A DNA stretch of 64,000 nt from NCBI GenBank assembly GCA_029866325.1, contig JARWZO010000019.1, forward strand, positions 372,001 through 436,000, in the 5' to 3' direction. A model generated the notes under the pieces. That model saw only the letters and a list, made by a program, of their open reading frames with translations. It was not told the DNA's origin and did not search any database. Position numbers and translations under genes: made by a program. Every line of letters begins with the position of its first letter. Position 1 is the stretch's first letter. This stretch comes from Fluviicola sp. (GTDB lineage: Bacteria; Bacteroidota; Bacteroidia; Flavobacteriales_D; Crocinitomicaceae). This document shows, piece by piece, positions 8,323-22,444 of the stretch.

Positions 8323-10200
8323 TTACATTACTTTAATTAGTTTCTTGCGAAGAACGATCGCATCTGTTTTGGTGGTAATTGAATAAACGCCTTTTGACCA
8401 TTCTTCAGAAGGTAAATTCAATTGATTCGGACCTTCTTTTAACTGGAAAACTTGCGTGAATACCGTATTTCCCGATTGATCGCACACTGTAACCATTACC
8501 TCATCCTGAAATTCTGAAATGTATTCAATCACAGCGGCATGTTTTGTTGGATTCGGGTAAACCACCGCAATTTGTCCTAAAGCTTCTGTCCTGTTTACAG
8601 AAATTACTTCCGTAGGGTTTATTCTTCCATCTAAATCTAGTTGGTCAATGCGGTAGTAGTTGATTCCTTTAGGTGCCGTTTCATGCACAAACTCATAATA
8701 CTGATCAACGGTTGTTGTACCGGCTCCATCGATTGTACCGACGGTTGAATAGTTTATTCCGTCAAGGGAGTGCTTGATTTCAAACAACTTATTGTTTTTC
8801 TCACTCAAGGTCATCCATGTCAGGTGATTTCCCAAATCGGTTGAAATACCTTTGAAACCAACCAGTTCAACAGGTAAAATCCCTGTTCCCGACCAGCCAG
8901 AAATGGTAAATTCACATCCGTCGCCCGAGTTACCATCGATCATGAGTAAGTATTGGTTACCTATGGTTAATCCGGTAGCTGTAACTGTTCCCAAGGTAGT
9001 ATTTCCGGGGTTGTAGCAATTAGACACAGAAGTAAAGCCTGTGCAGCATCCACCTGTGTAGGTAACACTGTACACATGCGCCTGTATTCCAAAACCGCTC
9101 ACACATCCACCTACATAAGTAATAGGGAAGCTAGCAGTAGTGGCAGTTGCGGTAAATTGATACCAAGAGTTGTTTTCGATAGAACCACAGAATACGGAAC
9201 TTACATTACCCGGTTGATCTGAAGAGAAGGTAACATCCGTTGATGCCGAAAATGTGCCGGGACCTTGTGTTAAAGTAGCCGGTGTCGGGCAATAATCATT
9301 TGTTCCTGCAGTAGGACCTGATATACCACATGGCTGTGCTTGCGCAACACAAATTGAAAACGTACCTGTTCCACCACCGTAATCCCACATGCGAATATAT
9401 ACTGTGGAACCGGCTGTTAGTCCACTGGCATTGATTAACGACATCGCTCCGTTCGGTGAAGAATCATCATCACAAGAAACCAATGTTAACGATCCACAAG
9501 CTCCTGTATAAAGCGCCATTCCGCTATCAGTTGTAGTTCCGGTTTGGCTATCAATTTGCACCGATCCTGAGGCAGGCACAACAAAACGAAACCAAACATC
9601 CGGACCGGAATAGCTGGCACAACCCGGCGCGGGAACACCTGCTGAATTGGTTGAACCAACTGTAGTTCCTGCAGTATAAGAGCAAGTAGCTCCAACCGTT
9701 AGTAAGGTAGCCGAGCATGGATCATCATTGCCCATTGGAGTTGGTGACGAAGCACAAATAGAAAATGTTCCATTGTTATTATTTCCGTATTCCCAAACGC
9801 GAATAAATAACGTTGAGCCAGGAGTAAGTCCCGTAGCTGCCAAGTAAGACATATTTCCGTTCGGAGACGAATCATCATCGCATGAAAGCAAGGTAAGCGA
9901 TCCGCAAGTTCCGGTATATAACCCCAATCCTGAATCGGTTATTACTCCTGTGTTCATATCAATAATCACTTGCCCGTTGGCCGGTACCACTACCGAAAAC
10001 CAAACGTCACCACCCGAATAACTTGCACAACCCGGAGCGGGTACTCCCGCACTAGCAGTAGCGGCTGCATTCGTATAAGATGAAAAGCTACATGAAGCTC
10101 CTACAGTGAGTGATATTGCAGAACAAGGATTATCATTTGCGGGCTGAGCCCAAGCGAAACCCGTTGCCAAGAGCAACGTGCTGAGTAGTAATTGGCGCAT
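8323..10200 (-). CDS. T9SS type A cargo protein with two duplicated beta domains
   Basis: 625 residues. A signal peptide ends near FAWAQ (residue ~19). Two homologous ~140-residue domains follow (about 20-155 and 156-290), each with C-S-A, PGCASYSG, DVWF, TDSG, LYTG.CGSLTL, SCDDDSSPNG and FIR.W.YG words; they resemble the pre-peptidase-C-like or choice-of-anchor beta-sandwich modules found in bacteroidete secreted proteins. A third Cys-rich segment (residues ~290-440) and a fibronectin-like stretch come next. The last ~80 residues, beginning VVYPNPTKHAAVIEY, are a type A sorting domain ending in LIKVM. The protein is predicted to be exported by the type IX system. It is the first gene of a two-gene operon with the small secreted protein downstream. 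Confidence 0.88.
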   Translation of the reverse strand: MRQLLLSTLLLATGFAWAQPANDNPCSAISLTVGASCSFSSYTNAAATASAGVPAPGCASYSGGDVWFSVVVPANGQVIIDMNTGVITDSGLGLYTGTCGSLTLLSCDDDSSPNGNMSYLAATGLTPGSTLFIRVWEYGNNNNGTFSICASSPTPMGNDDPCSATLLTVGATCSYTAGTTVGSTNSAGVPAPGCASYSGPDVWFRFVVPASGSVQIDSQTGTTTDSGMALYTGACGSLTLVSCDDDSSPNGAMSLINASGLTAGSTVYIRMWDYGGGTGTFSICVAQAQPCGISGPTAGTNDYCPTPATLTQGPGTFSASTDVTFSSDQPGNVSSVFCGSIENNSWYQFTATATTASFPITYVGGCVSGFGIQAHVYSVTYTGGCCTGFTSVSNCYNPGNTTLGTVTATGLTIGNQYLLMIDGNSGDGCEFTISGWSGTGILPVELVGFKGISTDLGNHLTWMTLSEKNNKLFEIKHSLDGINYSTVGTIDGAGTTTVDQYYEFVHETAPKGINYYRIDQLDLDGRINPTEVISVNRTEALGQIAVVYPNPTKHAAVIEYISEFQDEVMVTVCDQSGNTVFTQVFQLKEGPNQLNLPSEEWSKGVYSITTKTDAIVLRKKLIKVM

Positions 10201-11419: not shown

Positions 11420-11493
11420 GGTTTGGTAGTTCAGTTGGTTAGAATACATGCCTGTCACGCATGGGGTCGCGGGTTCGAGTCCCGTCCAGACCG
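11420..11493 (+). tRNA. tRNA-Asp (anticodon GTC)
   Basis: A complete cloverleaf: acceptor GGTTTGG / CCAGACC (one G-T pair), D-arm with GTTGGTTAGAA, anticodon loop CTGTCAC giving GTC, T-arm with GGTTCGAGTCCC, discriminator G. CCA is not encoded. It is the intact founder of the duplicated region to its right. Confidence 0.96.
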
Positions 11494-11539
11494 CACAATT
11501 CGTTAGAAGAAAAGTCCTATATGGCTGTAGGAAATAGAG

Positions 11540-19663: not shown

Positions 19664-19692
19664 ACGTCCAAAGTTGATTTGGGCGTTTTTTT
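19664..19692 (+). terminator. Stand-alone terminator upstream of the tRNA region
   Basis: ACGTCCAAA pairs with TTTGGGCGT (one G-T) and is followed by nine T. No convincing gene precedes it, apart from the 37-codon frame ending at 19630, so it may end a small RNA. Confidence 0.65.
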
Positions 19693-19879
19693 TTGATTTT
19701 TTTTTCAAACAATGCAGTAATAAACAGACGACATAACGAAACAGTATTGAAACAACAAAGCAATTGGGAGACAGTCAGTTGACAAAAATGTGATTATTCG
19801 GAGACATCCGGGGTGGAATTTCATTGCCAAAACAACCATCCAACCAATTGATTATCAATAAATTAATTTCATTTTTTAG

Positions 19880-19910
19880 TTGCAGAATTCAAAAACCCGT
19901 TATAGATTTG
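19880..19910 (+). promoter_or_regulatory. Promoter of the leader/tRNA region
   Basis: TTG (19880-19882), 20 bases, then TAGATTTG (19903-19910), an exact match to the bacteroidete consensus TTG-N19-20-TAnnTTTG. Transcription would start near 19917, about 200 bases before tRNA-Cys. Confidence 0.6.
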
Positions 19911-19931: not shown

Positions 19932-20042
19932 ATGAAACAACAATACACATATCAAAACGGAAACACGGGCTGTTATCAGCTTGCGCAACGCCCCTCTTTG
20001 CTCCCGTGTGGAACTGTAGTTTATTCCATGGATATGACTTGA
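19932..20042 (+). CDS. Possible leader peptide (36 residues)
   Basis: ATG 19932 starts 15 bases after the predicted transcription start. The peptide begins MKQQYTYQ and its middle, GCYQLAQRPSLLPCG, is dense in Cys, Gln, Leu and Pro. These are the same four amino acids as the tRNAs encoded downstream (Cys, Pro, Pro, Gln, Leu). The frame ends 30 bases before the terminator hairpin. It could be a translated leader whose stalling affects termination, or a chance frame in a structured RNA; codon evidence alone does not decide. Confidence 0.3.
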   Translation: MKQQYTYQNGNTGCYQLAQRPSLLPCGTVVYSMDMT

Positions 20043-20072
20043 TGTAGTAGAAGAAACACAATCTATTGCACA

Positions 20073-20100
20073 AGCATCTCCGAAACGAGGTGCTTTTTTT
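20073..20100 (+). terminator. Terminator or attenuator in front of tRNA-Cys
   Basis: AGCATCTC pairs with GAGGTGCT (one T-G pair) around the loop CGAAAC, followed by six or more T. It lies 16 bases before tRNA-Cys. Confidence 0.75.
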
Positions 20101-20116: not shown

Positions 20117-20191
20117 AGACAAGATGGCCGAAGGGTGAAGGCATCGGATTGCAAATCCGGTTTTTATGAGTTCGAATCTCATTCTTGTCTC
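20117..20191 (+). tRNA. tRNA-Cys (anticodon GCA)
   Basis: Acceptor AGACAAG / CTTGTCT, D-arm with GAAGGGTGAAGGC, anticodon stem TCGGA / TCCGG around TTGCAAA giving GCA, T-arm ATGAG TTCGAAT CTCAT. The discriminator position is C where Cys tRNAs usually have U. First gene of a cluster of five tRNAs. Confidence 0.88.
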
Positions 20192-20197
20192 TGAATT

Positions 20198-20290
20198 CGA
20201 GTAGTAGAGGAGCGGTTTATCTCGCCTCATTTGGGATGAGGAGCACGTAGGCCTGTCTGCCTATGGATGATTCGAATCCTACCTATTCGA
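20198..20290 (+). tRNA. tRNA-Pro (anticodon TGG) with a 19-base insertion in the T-arm
   Basis: Acceptor CGAGTAG / CTATTCG, U8 and A9 present, D-stem GAGG / TCTC, anticodon stem CCTCA / TGAGG around TTTGGGA (TGG), variable loop AGCAC, discriminator A. The T-stem GTAGG (20247-20251) and CCTAC (20278-20282) and T-loop TTCGAAT (20271-20277) are perfect, but 19 extra bases (20252-20270) separate the 5' stem from the loop. The extra segment can extend the stem locally (AGGC CTGTCT GCCT). Unless the insert is tolerated or removed, the gene may be non-functional. Confidence 0.75.
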
Positions 20291-20291
20291 C

Positions 20292-20367
20292 AAAGCACTG
20301 CGGTGAAAACCGTTGCAGACAACTGTCTCTTGTTTGCAGATCTGCTGATAAAGCAGATCAGTGCTTT
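20292..20367 (+). ncRNA. tRNA-sized perfect four-way-junction RNA without tRNA consensus
   Basis: Four helices pack without gaps. P1: AAAGCACTG / CAGTGCTTT (20292-20300 with 20359-20367). P2: CGGT GAAA ACCG (20301-20312), a GNRA tetraloop. P3: TGCAGACAA / TTGTTTGCA (20314-20322 with 20330-20338) around a seven-base loop CTGTCTC. P4: ATCTGCT GATAA AGCAGAT (20340-20358). Only one unpaired base lies between P2 and P3 and one between P3 and P4. Total length 76 bases, sitting between two tRNA-Pro genes. It lacks U8, TTCRA and a 5-bp anticodon stem, so it is not a normal tRNA; if read as one, the P3 loop would present GUC. Confidence 0.6.
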
Positions 20368-20371
20368 ATTT

Positions 20372-20443
20372 CTGAGAAGATAACGGTGGTTGTTTACCCG
20401 TTTTGGATGCGGGAGGTCGCAGGTTCGAACCCTGCTTCTCAGA
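20372..20443 (+). tRNA. tRNA-Pro-like gene (anticodon TGG), atypical D-arm
   Basis: Acceptor CTGAGAA / TTCTCAG (extendable to nine pairs), anticodon stem CCCGT / GCGGG around TTTGGAT giving TGG, variable loop AGGTC, perfect T-arm GCAGG TTCGAAC CCTGC, discriminator A. The D-region is unusual: position 8 is G, the D-stem is reduced to three good pairs (AAC / GTT) and A14 is missing. A second Pro tRNA with the same anticodon lies 82 bases upstream. Confidence 0.72.
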
Positions 20444-20449
20444 CAAAAT

Positions 20450-20520
20450 TGCCCTGTAGTGTAATGGCAACACACGTGGTTTTGGTCCACGTACTATAGG
20501 TTCGACTCCTGTTGGGGCAA
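20450..20520 (+). tRNA. tRNA-Gln (anticodon TTG)
   Basis: Acceptor TGCCCTG / TGGGGCA with two wobble pairs, U8 A9, D-stem GTGT / ACAC, anticodon stem CGTGG / CCACG around TTTTGGT (TTG), T-arm ATAGG TTCGACT CCTGT, discriminator A. 71 bases, a usual length for this family. Confidence 0.9.
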
Positions 20521-20529
20521 CTTTTTACT

Positions 20530-20602
20530 GCGGAAATGGCGGAATGGTATACGCGCCTGATTTAGGATCAGGATGATGAGAGTTCGAGTCTCTCTTTCCG
20601 TA
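20530..20602 (+). tRNA. tRNA-Leu (anticodon TAG) lacking the long variable arm
   Basis: Acceptor GCGGAAA / TTTCCGT (one G-T), D-arm GGCGGAATGGTATACGC of the Leu type, anticodon stem CCTGA / TCAGG around TTTAGGA (TAG), T-arm GAGAG TTCGAGT CTCTC, discriminator A followed by CCA. The variable region is only ATGAT (five bases), whereas bacterial Leu tRNAs are class II with a long variable arm. The rest is close to a standard sequence, so the arm seems to have been deleted. Confidence 0.8.
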
Positions 20603-20605
20603 CCA

Positions 20606-20652
20606 AAAAAATAACGGCTGCAGAAGTTTTACTTCGCAGCCGTTATTTTTTT
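20606..20652 (+). terminator. Strong terminator of the tRNA array
   Basis: Stem of about 15 pairs, AAAAATAACGGCTGC / GCAGCCGTTATTTTT, loop 14 bases, works in both directions. The right arm (AGCCGTTATTTTTT) is partly repeated at 20714-20726, at the border of the AbiE module. Confidence 0.9.
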
Positions 20653-20670
20653 GTCTTCATTCTCGCTCTC

Positions 20671-20824: not shown

Positions 20825-21838
20825 TTAGAAATTCAACTCAACCGTCCATTCAATTTCATTCAATCGCTTCTTTAGCAATTTCAAATCGCTGATCATGTTA
20901 TCAAAATCAGGGGATTCAGCATAAATCATTTCTTCTTGCATTCTCCTGTAATCTTGCTTCCAGACGTCGATGACTGCGTCAGGAGGAATTGGATTGATCG
21001 ATTGCGGTTGATGCAAATGGTAGTCGACTCCACCAATTTTAGTAAATCGGTGACGATGGTTTACAATTACCTCATACAATGATTTATCTTTAATTGCTTT
21101 ATCAAGCGTCTCTGTCTTGGATAGTTTATAAACATCATACAAATGTCGACTTAAACGATTAACACGAATTTGATCGTGGGGCTTCGAAAACTCCTCATGG
21201 AGCAGCATTATTTTCTCAAGTAGTGTTCTCTCAGCTTGAACTACGGGAATTACGACCGCAGGTGAATTGAAAAGATCGGGGAAATGAGTATCTACCAAAG
21301 ATGATATCTCTTGCATAGAAAAGGGTTCAATCAGCGAACGGCAGCCGATTTCGATCTGAACCCTCGGATGGATGTATTCAGAATGTGGAATAACGCTTGG
21401 GTAATATAGATTGATGACCTTCGGATCTTGATCGGATTCCGTTGTTGATTCCAGCACCCAATTCACTCCTGTCAAACCTTTATCTGCAAATAGCTGCTGT
21501 AATTCAGGATAGAACGTCTCTGAGATGTGTTTGTTTGCAGCTTTTCTAAGCGCAGTAATCTGCTTTTTTGACAACTCTCCATTAAAGCCAAAGAAGGAAC
21601 GATCAATAGCCAGATCAATATCTTCAGAGAATCGTTCAATTAGGTTCCAAGCTTTGCTTAACGAGGTCCCGCCTTTAAATACAAGATGCTTTGAAACATC
21701 CATTTCAAAAATAACCGATAATACCTGCACTACCCACCAGTCTTTTTCCACTGCATGCGAAGCCATTCCAGTCCGCGAACTTATTTCGTTGTAAATCGCG
21801 ACTTTAGATGCGGCAGGTGTATTTAACCAACTATTCAT
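20825..21838 (-). CDS. AbiEii/AbiGii-family nucleotidyltransferase toxin
   Basis: 337 residues. The nucleotidyltransferase signature is complete: KGGTSLSKAW (residues ~58-67) followed by SEDIDLAID with the catalytic Asp-x-Asp about residue 75. Further family words are RTLLEKIMLLHEE and HLYDVYKL, the DNA-polymerase-beta-like helical tail. Family knowledge: AbiEii is the toxin of type IV abortive-infection modules; the related MenT3 of Mycobacterium adds pyrimidines to tRNA 3' ends. The antitoxin gene ends nine bases upstream on the same strand. The module lies beside an unusual tRNA cluster and between 21-bp direct repeats, so it was probably acquired. Promoter and operator lie ahead of the antitoxin gene. 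Confidence 0.88.
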   Translation of the reverse strand: MNSWLNTPAASKVAIYNEISSRTGMASHAVEKDWWVVQVLSVIFEMDVSKHLVFKGGTSLSKAWNLIERFSEDIDLAIDRSFFGFNGELSKKQITALRKAANKHISETFYPELQQLFADKGLTGVNWVLESTTESDQDPKVINLYYPSVIPHSEYIHPRVQIEIGCRSLIEPFSMQEISSLVDTHFPDLFNSPAVVIPVVQAERTLLEKIMLLHEEFSKPHDQIRVNRLSRHLYDVYKLSKTETLDKAIKDKSLYEVIVNHRHRFTKIGGVDYHLHQPQSINPIPPDAVIDVWKQDYRRMQEEMIYAESPDFDNMISDLKLLKKRLNEIEWTVELNF

Positions 21839-21847
21839 AAGCGTTTG

Positions 21848-22444
21848 TTAAAGTGCTTTACGTAAAATGATGCGTATCCATTCCGGAGCAAATCGGATAT
21901 CATGTTCCAATCGGTAAGGGTCTTCTTTCTTTAATTGTTCTAAAACAATTTCGATTTCTTGCTCCGTAATACAATCTTTTCCGATTTCCTTCAGCGCCTG
22001 AATAGCGAGAGTACTTAACTTACCTATCATTGCCAGGTTTTTGGGAGATGTTTTCTTAAAAACGATCTTCTGCTTCCCCAATTGTATTTTACGAGCCGAA
22101 CCATCTGTCAGAAAAACCACATTCACAGGAATCTGCGATGAAAGGCCAAGGATGTTCATTGCCAGACTTCCCGTTGGAATGATACGTGCCCTGTCTCTTT
22201 TTGCAATGGATTGGGCTATATCTTCCACCGACGGCTTCACAAACCCCAAAAGAGGATCTGTTTCCAATCTGGAATAGATTCCTCGCGCCACTCGTTGAAT
22301 ACTATTGTCGTCCACCAAACGTTCTAACGCTTTCCCGACAGCTTTAGCGTTTCCAAACAGCAGAAAATCCTCGATAAAAAACAGCGAACCCCTCCTGGCT
22401 TTTTTAATTTTTGAAAACACCTTACTATCAATCGATTCAACCAT
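21848..22444 (-). CDS. AbiEi-like antitoxin / DUF6088 regulator
   Basis: 198 residues. The N-terminal ~60 residues form a winged helix (FSKIKKARRGSLFFIEDF, then a recognition region GNAKAVGKALERL and the wing VARGIYSRL). The C-terminal part contains the NGLTDGSARKIQLGKQKIVFKK type strand pair (here VVFLTDGSARKIQ) typical of AbiEi and DUF6088 proteins. Family knowledge: this class represses its own promoter and counteracts the nucleotidyltransferase without stable binding. First gene of the two-gene operon, with a matching inverted repeat on its promoter. Confidence 0.85.
   Translation of the reverse strand: MVESIDSKVFSKIKKARRGSLFFIEDFLLFGNAKAVGKALERLVDDNSIQRVARGIYSRLETDPLLGFVKPSVEDIAQSIAKRDRARIIPTGSLAMNILGLSSQIPVNVVFLTDGSARKIQLGKQKIVFKKTSPKNLAMIGKLSTLAIQALKEIGKDCITEQEIEIVLEQLKKEDPYRLEHDIRFAPEWIRIILRKAL

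Follow-up and report, generated by a model that had tools for sequence, protein, structure and literature searches.

A tRNA-sized RNA bearing an array-type tRNA-Asp anticodon loop, and a complementary upstream hairpin, in tRNA arrays probably controlled by attenuation

A 64,000-nucleotide stretch of a 4.68-Mb Fluviicola sp. genome (contig JARWZO010000019.1, positions 372,001 to 436,000; hereafter, the window) carries a tRNA array that includes a tRNA-sized RNA, X, best read as a surrogate for the anticodon arm of tRNA-Asp that is predicted to pair with a hairpin, W, upstream of the array. Comparison of related loci brings out conserved parts, covarying stems, complementary loops, leader peptides that match their arrays, and predicted antiterminators that match their terminators in most relatives and weakly in the window. 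We consider it reasonably probable that X, acting as a tRNA-Asp-arm surrogate, kisses W and feeds back on the array, in addition to ribosome-mediated attenuation. W and X form a structured RNA pair new to Rfam 15, in which a tRNA anticodon loop and its surrogate apparently serve as a regulatory ligand. A first-pass annotation of the window had described X; the complementary hairpin, leader peptide, attenuator, and link to RNA repair in relatives go beyond it. The array has the order Cys-Pro-X-Pro-Gln-Leu, and its features are as follows.

19664..19694, + strand: intrinsic terminator of the upstream unit, ACGTCCAAA..TTTGGGCGT-T9 (alignment and anchored listing; at the same place in most W loci)
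19761..19781, + strand: hairpin H1 of W, CAATTG-[GGAGACAGT]-CAGTTG (pattern and alignment; G-U variants fit the + strand)
19797..19828, + strand: hairpins H2 and H3 of W (alignment)
19880..19910, + strand: putative array promoter, TTG-N20-TAGATTTG (sequence match to consensus)
19932..20042, + strand: predicted leader open reading frame (ORF) of 36 codons, MKQQYTYQNGNTGCYQLAQRPSLLPCGTVVYSMDMT, then stop (leader search)
20030..20036, + strand: candidate antiterminator strand before the leader stop, GGATATG (duplex estimate)
20072..20100, + strand: putative attenuator terminator, AAGCATCTC..GAGGTGCTT with T-run, before the first tRNA (sequence)
20118..20191, + strand: tRNA-Cys(GCA) (ARAGORN)
20198..20291, + strand: tRNA-Pro(UGG) with an insert in the variable/T-arm region (ARAGORN)
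20292..20367, + strand: X, tRNA-sized RNA with a CUGUCUC loop at 20323-20329 (folding and homologue comparison)
20372..20444, + strand: tRNA-Pro(UGG), low-scoring, directly 3' of X (ARAGORN)
20450..20521, + strand: tRNA-Gln(UUG) (ARAGORN)
20530..20605, + strand: tRNA-Leu(UAG) without a long variable arm (ARAGORN)
20604..20654, + strand: array terminator (sequence)

The minimum free energy structure of X pairs 60 of its 76 bases in four helices (-36.4 kcal/mol, z -6.68), with the loops GAAA, CUGUCUC, and GAUAA, and none of 200 shuffled sequences was as stable, supporting the four-helix fold proposed in the first-pass annotation. The helix lengths given there (9+4+9+7 pairs) are a close variant of the computed 8+5+9+8, its two unpaired bases (T20313 and G20339) disappear in the computed optimum, which leaves no junction base free, and its "perfect" pairing holds only if G-U pairs are included. 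Its placement of X between two tRNA-Pro genes agrees with the ARAGORN calls at 20198-20291 and 20372-20444. X itself is not a tRNA, as had been claimed: ARAGORN did not call it with default or relaxed settings, a T arm with a GTTC-type loop is absent (the GAUAA loop stands there instead), and rod-shaped relatives of X also have no T arm. We found no Rfam family for X at the gathering score and none in a permissive local scan; the array sequences scanned gave only tRNA and tRNA-Sec at the gathering score, and neither W nor X matched Rfam 15 in any of eight sources scanned. A large ornate RNA of the ROOL/GOLLD type was ruled out, with no such Rfam match for X or the array. X does have a seven-base anticodon-type loop, CUGUCUC, which is that of the array tRNA-Asp genes described below.

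A blast search with X and its flanks (101 bases) returned, besides X itself, only weak, chance-like matches in 14 genomes of the genus and no match in phages, and a search with the whole array gave partial, tRNA-sized matches in 36 phage and 5 plasmid records. Comparable arrays were recovered by whole-array search of 240 family genomes, and many of their inter-tRNA gaps contain a hairpin with a CTGTCTC loop. In the resulting set of 23 X elements (17 at first, with six added), the CUGUCUC loop is invariant (23/23), and the six stem pairs beside it (P3) are kept in 132 of 138 cells, whereas 10,000 shuffles of the arms among loci kept 99.5 on average and never more than 115; the stem thus shows the compensatory changes expected of a genuine RNA structure. 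We attach next to no probability to the view that the fold is a chance cluster of hairpins in an inter-tRNA spacer, even though palindromic hairpins occur in other such spacers, given the shuffling result and, decisively, the covarying homologues across families. Outside the loop and apical stem, X varies between elements. A four-way fold was obtained for 8 of the first 17 (the window, G123, G053, G013, G009, G143, G129, and L111), the other nine being rods, and for one of the further six (G267). Because shape varies while loop and stem are kept, the conserved thing is the presented loop; the gap-free four-way junction that had been offered as the defining feature of X does not hold up, and a conserved cloverleaf is ruled out, about half of the elements being rods. 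Nor is X "engineered-looking," as first suggested: it is a natural element of many genomes. The next tRNA 3' of X, called at a relaxed threshold, is tRNA-Pro in 13 of 23 cases, and by eye the uncalled downstream sequence resembles the same tRNA-Pro in eight more; the neighbor is degenerate in G065 and tRNA-Leu in Neptunitalea.

Five W arrays outside the family have a genuine tRNA-Asp(GUC) with U37 whose anticodon arm is the CUGUCUC hairpin, and G706 has this loop both in tRNA-Asp and in an adjacent X. Three of these five tRNA-Asp genes have Pro as the next called tRNA (in G706, X lies in between), one has His, and one is followed by no call within 600 bases. Ordinary bacterial Asp and Glu tRNAs have A37. 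The tRNA-Asp loop reads CUGUCUC (five cases) or UUGUCUC (one) in W arrays, as against CUGUCUA or UUGUCUA in arrays without W, and it is CTGTCAC in the ordinary tRNA-Asp of the window (11420-11494) and in two Asp genes outside the arrays of the same loci. As a bare-loop duplex with W, the X loop is estimated at -9.8 kcal/mol, CUGUCUA at -8.0, and the host loop at -6.8. Since the X loop is the array tRNA-Asp loop, X is best seen as an anticodon-arm surrogate and W as the hairpin that would read it. The earlier guess of a tRNA mimic or decoy, prompted by likeness to the tRNA-Asp loop, is partly borne out, in that the likeness becomes identity with the array-type loop CUGUCUC.

The shared loop, the side-by-side copies in G706, and a relaxed ARAGORN call of the G143 X as tRNA-Asp(GUC) (the G011 X being read as tRNA-Phe) would also suit a decayed tRNA-Asp pseudogene with no present function. 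We regard this as very improbable, because a dead gene would not keep its loop invariant and its stem compensated while the rest of X changes. As separate observations, the array tRNA-Glu loop is CUUUCUA in 8/8 cases and array tRNA-Asp carries U37 in 6/6; a set of array tRNAs marked in this way may evade a nuclease or a modification.

W sits upstream of the putative array promoter, with an H1 loop core, GAGACAG (19768-19774), that is reverse-complementary to the X loop. Its consensus upstream of X arrays is CAATTG-[G/A]GAGACAGT-CAATTG or a close variant, and the H1 stem varies by G-U pairs on the array strand or by compensation (CAAATG/CATTTG). Across 32 W sites, 185 of 192 H1 pairs are kept, a value reached by 1 of 10,000 arm shuffles, and the core is complementary to all seven X-loop bases, once via a G-U pair; beyond that one case, W:X pairing is out of reach of covariation because both loops are invariant. 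H2 and H3 have pairs changed on both sides in relatives, at pairing levels in the MAFFT alignment of only 73% and 55% of cells, which partly reflect misalignment. Of five shuffle measures for W, two were not above the shuffles. A promoter for W was sought and none was convincing, and the idea that W is the start of a protein was dropped by eye, as reading frames break between loci. The distance from W to a TTTG[CT] box, which we take, like TTG-N20-TAGATTTG, to represent the Bacteroidota-type (Flavobacteria) promoter, is 140 to 144 bases in the 32 W sites counted, a spacing conditional on the box having been sought only 110 to 190 bases from W.

This fixed spacing, together with a WYL/WCX regulator cluster in 13 of 19 family loci (neighboring gene clusters, here and below, were named from one or two representatives each), could indicate instead that W is a double-stranded DNA operator and X its RNA imitation, with a single protein, for instance the WYL regulator from a neighboring gene, recognizing the two. 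The stem changes speak for RNA. They appear as G-U on the + strand in 25 cells and as C-A, which is how opposite-strand G-U would appear, in two, both at the outermost pair. H2 likewise varies on both sides, as for RNA, and several W loci have no WYL gene in the stretch fetched. We therefore judge a DNA operator quite improbable and retain W as an RNA hairpin.

W and X occur together with few exceptions. W is present in 14 of 15 X arrays that were found by array similarity without using W, and overall 22 of 23 X arrays have an upstream W; in the exception, G133, neither pattern nor model finds W in the 8.9 kb of contig ahead of the first tRNA. Conversely, 26 of 32 W sites (25 by filter plus G108, which the filter missed) are followed by a CUGUCUC hairpin, which belongs either to X or to the anticodon arm of a U37-bearing array tRNA-Asp. 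The hairpin was not found in two contigs whose sequence stops less than 1 kb downstream of W (G147 and G148) or in the complete array of G061, where a hairpin with another loop seems, by eye, to hold the X position. Among small second arrays, that of G129 has W and a tRNA-Asp with UUGUCUC, and those of G143 and G148 have W and tRNA-Glu only, lacking both X and tRNA-Asp. A functional W in the latter two would need a partner acting in trans; the main array of G143 does have X.

W was also searched for by itself. A W covariance model matched 18 of 399 genomes of the order and 11 of 395 of the class (two already known), and scanning public genomes with the W pattern yielded 12 loci, including two from Flavobacteriaceae (L108, Neptunitalea, and L111), with no exact match in viral contigs. 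Cultured strains among these W carriers are Crocinitomix catalasitica ATCC 23190 and Neptunitalea chrysea NBRC 110019. Of 14 such hits outside the family, 12 are at tRNA arrays, and all 12 arrays contain the CUGUCUC hairpin (L108, L111, G289, G267, G676, G661 [two], G610, G685, G738, G441, and G706). The two weakest hits, G650 and G520 (damaged loop), have no tRNA and no CUGUCUC hairpin in 11 to 12 kb and were counted as misses. Based on the conserved complementarity and the 12 of 14 blind hits, W probably pairs with X or with tRNA-Asp(U37). CUGUCUC presumably also resembles a stretch of 23S rRNA. A W-like element with a damaged loop core, GUAACAG, was seen in L160 (5474-5570), with no tRNA array within 11 kb, and is perhaps a remnant.

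Between the putative promoter and the first tRNA, the arrays have the parts of an attenuator: an intrinsic terminator precedes the first array gene, and a short leader ORF is enriched in codons cognate to the array. The leader search required a stop 40 to 62 bases before the terminator T-run and succeeded at 31 of 32 sites, with observed distances of 45 to 55 bases that are conditional on this limit; without it, an earlier set of sites gave 47 to 54 bases in all but one, where the contig is cut before the terminator. Each leader tends to spell its own array's contents. For example, the G738 leader is MINFDHIYEGSMHPQTVHEQFQDRPGFQIAKREEDNYPD and its array encodes Phe, Asp, Pro, Glu, His, Arg, and Gln, and the Neptunitalea leader is HTLHTQQQSQLSLCYYIHYCAC with Tyr, Cys, Leu, Gln, and His. 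For the 28 of 32 W sites that combine a leader with two or more tRNA types, the mean fraction of leader residues cognate to the locus's own array is 0.384, compared with 0.326 when permuted (maximum, 0.367; 0/20,000; relatedness uncorrected). The 12 loci outside the family gave 0.427 versus 0.349 (0/20,000; relatedness again uncorrected), and the other two frames gave 0.243 and 0.216 in 20 loci (20 of the 22 sites with a leader). The tRNA lists behind these values are ARAGORN defaults, which miss tRNAs with inserts. Of 12 amino acids compared, 11 occur more often in leaders of arrays with the corresponding tRNA (Phe and Gln only slightly so), and Arg showed no trend.

The candidate antiterminator strand also matches its own terminator. 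Across 22 loci, the mean estimated duplex is -11.1 kcal/mol, versus -9.6 kcal/mol when permuted (6/20,000; relatedness uncorrected) and -5.0 kcal/mol for a control segment; in G053, G289, and Neptunitalea, the locus's own terminator comes out best of all. For the window, the antiterminator is weak (-6.0 kcal/mol, rank 11 of 22) and ambiguous, GGATATG giving -5.9 kcal/mol against the terminator arm and another leader stretch giving -6.0 kcal/mol. That leader residues track the array's own tRNAs implies attenuation relieved by loss of those tRNAs. For the set of loci, we conclude from these sequence comparisons that attenuation control is highly likely; for the window's own copy we hold the same view with less confidence.

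In the model that we favor, X would present the array-type tRNA-Asp anticodon loop (CUGUCUC, U37) on its stem without any decoding role, and W would be a hairpin in RNA, positioned at a constant spacing ahead of the array promoter. We expect both to be transcribed, X presumably being excised by tRNA-processing enzymes, and their loops to form a seven-base kissing complex in the cell. Such pairing would allow the array's product, as long as it is intact and available, to influence the locus that encodes it; we infer the sign of this feedback and the natural trigger. When the leader is freely translated, ribosomes would cover the GGAGATG-type strand before its stop, the terminator would form, and the array would stay silent. 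Loss of a tRNA used by the leader, for example by the cut of an anticodon nuclease, would stall ribosomes upstream, so that the terminator's 5' arm would be captured by the GGAGATG-type strand, allowing synthesis of the replacement tRNAs and X. More tentatively, and with some doubt on our part, these loci may be self-sensing replacement-tRNA cassettes, in which the leader tests each tRNA type by translation and X or tRNA-Asp(U37) reports the dose or integrity of cassette RNA to W by kissing, in trans for second arrays without X (G143). The model offers a testable answer to how spare tRNA arrays are kept silent and switched on upon loss of particular tRNAs. A tRNA anticodon loop serving as feedback ligand for its own operon would, if true, be a new class of RNA regulation.

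Most of the arrays in this one family are tied to RNA repair through neighboring genes. An RtcB cluster occurs in 16 of the 19 fetched family loci (including L065 and L069, which have no W) and is absent from the window, L062, and L068, and genes for PrfH, RlaP, and Band-7 proteins recur in five or six of the 19. The window's genome has two RtcB genes, both away from the array. Outside the family, we found RtcB in L111, L152, and L162 and WYL plus RlaP in L151, and no RtcB, WYL, or RlaP gene in the stretches fetched for L108, L153-L158, and L161. Directly downstream of the window's array, on the opposite strand (20825-22444), are genes for an AbiEii nucleotidyltransferase and a DUF6088 protein, an arrangement reminiscent of a type IV toxin-antitoxin pair.

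For the consequence of W:X pairing we chose feedback; the main rival takes X as a decoy or sentinel for an anticodon nuclease, with U-G-U at positions 33 to 35 of its loop imitating tRNA-Asp (class Tyr/His/Asn/Asp) and soaking up or reporting the enzyme. RtcB might then reseal X, and the role of W would be to shield such loops or to serve as a secondary partner. Colicin E5 has the specificity that such a decoy would call for, and the seven-base loop with UGU on a stem and the RtcB, RlaP, and PrfH genes beside arrays in many family loci point the same way. By itself, however, a decoy leaves unexplained the invariant C-U-C at positions 36 to 38 of X and the complementarity of W to all seven loop bases, and Salmonella YrlA is reported not to be a substrate of the nuclease studied there (PMC7790460). 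We consider the decoy reading unlikely and prefer feedback through W:X kissing.

The 166 array tRNAs of 29 loci (ARAGORN default) mostly decode U- or C-initial codons (Leu, Gln, Pro, Cys, Ser, Tyr, His, Phe, and Arg), with Ser(GCU), Glu, and Asp also present; Ala, Val, Thr, and Ile are absent from this set, and Gly, Lys, Met, and Trp appear once each. Long variable/T-arm inserts occur in tRNA-Pro(UGG) copies of the window (20198-20291), L034, L036, and L040. A second recurrent gap element consists of a hairpin AACCAA..TTGGTT followed by GCAGGAACGACAAAGTCAATCCTGC or similar (L024, 1352-1437; L027, 1186-1521; L028, reverse, 1072-1240; L034, 1884-1968). The L065 array, which has a leader-like ORF and terminator without W or X, includes a tRNA with anticodon UUA that would read UAA (9042-9115). 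In the same family, L039, L041, and L043 have arrays of 8 to 17 tRNAs and no W or X in 3-kb loci.

Among the matches listed from open-licence PMC articles, no paper dealt with leader-peptide control of tRNA arrays or with W or X. Several known systems share parts of the arrangement. The Bacillus cereus tRNAOther is a tRNA-derived RNA unused in translation that affects gene expression (PMC3399842); X is likewise tRNA-like and predicted to be non-decoding, whereas the excerpted account of tRNAOther describes neither a partner hairpin nor an array context. The trn operon of Anabaena is a silent tRNA array that comes on under translational stress under TrcR control, with rtcB and slipin co-regulated, recalling the RtcB and Band-7 genes near many arrays here; unlike our loci, it has a protein repressor, and no leader peptide, W, or X figures in the portion of the report available (PMC10272220). 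The Salmonella rsr-yrlBA-rtcBA RNA repair operon encodes YrlA, which resembles X as a noncoding RNA with a tRNA-like part and a link to RtcB repair (PMC7790460), but X sits in a tRNA array and is defined by its anticodon loop. Because a Ro60/TROVE gene (PF05731) was absent in all 12 genomes tested, we do not file X with the Y RNAs, and membership is ruled out also by the lack of a bacterial Y RNA/YrlA match for X in Rfam at the gathering score.

In T-box leader RNAs, an RNA loop reads a tRNA anticodon loop, as we propose for W. Here, in contrast, the match is a seven-base loop-loop match, and W lies outside the leader, upstream of the putative promoter; with this position and no Rfam T-box match, membership in that class is ruled out. 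Ribosome-mediated attenuation at the trp, his, and ilv leader peptides relies on an ORF of regulatory codons and on mutually exclusive antiterminator and terminator structures. The arrays appear to share with it a short codon-rich leader ORF, mutually exclusive antiterminator and terminator, and a narrow distance from stop to terminator. They differ in that the output is a tRNA array, in that the leader draws simultaneously on many amino acids, namely those matching the tRNAs under its proposed control, and in that the unit includes a tRNA-Asp-like RNA and the upstream hairpin W.
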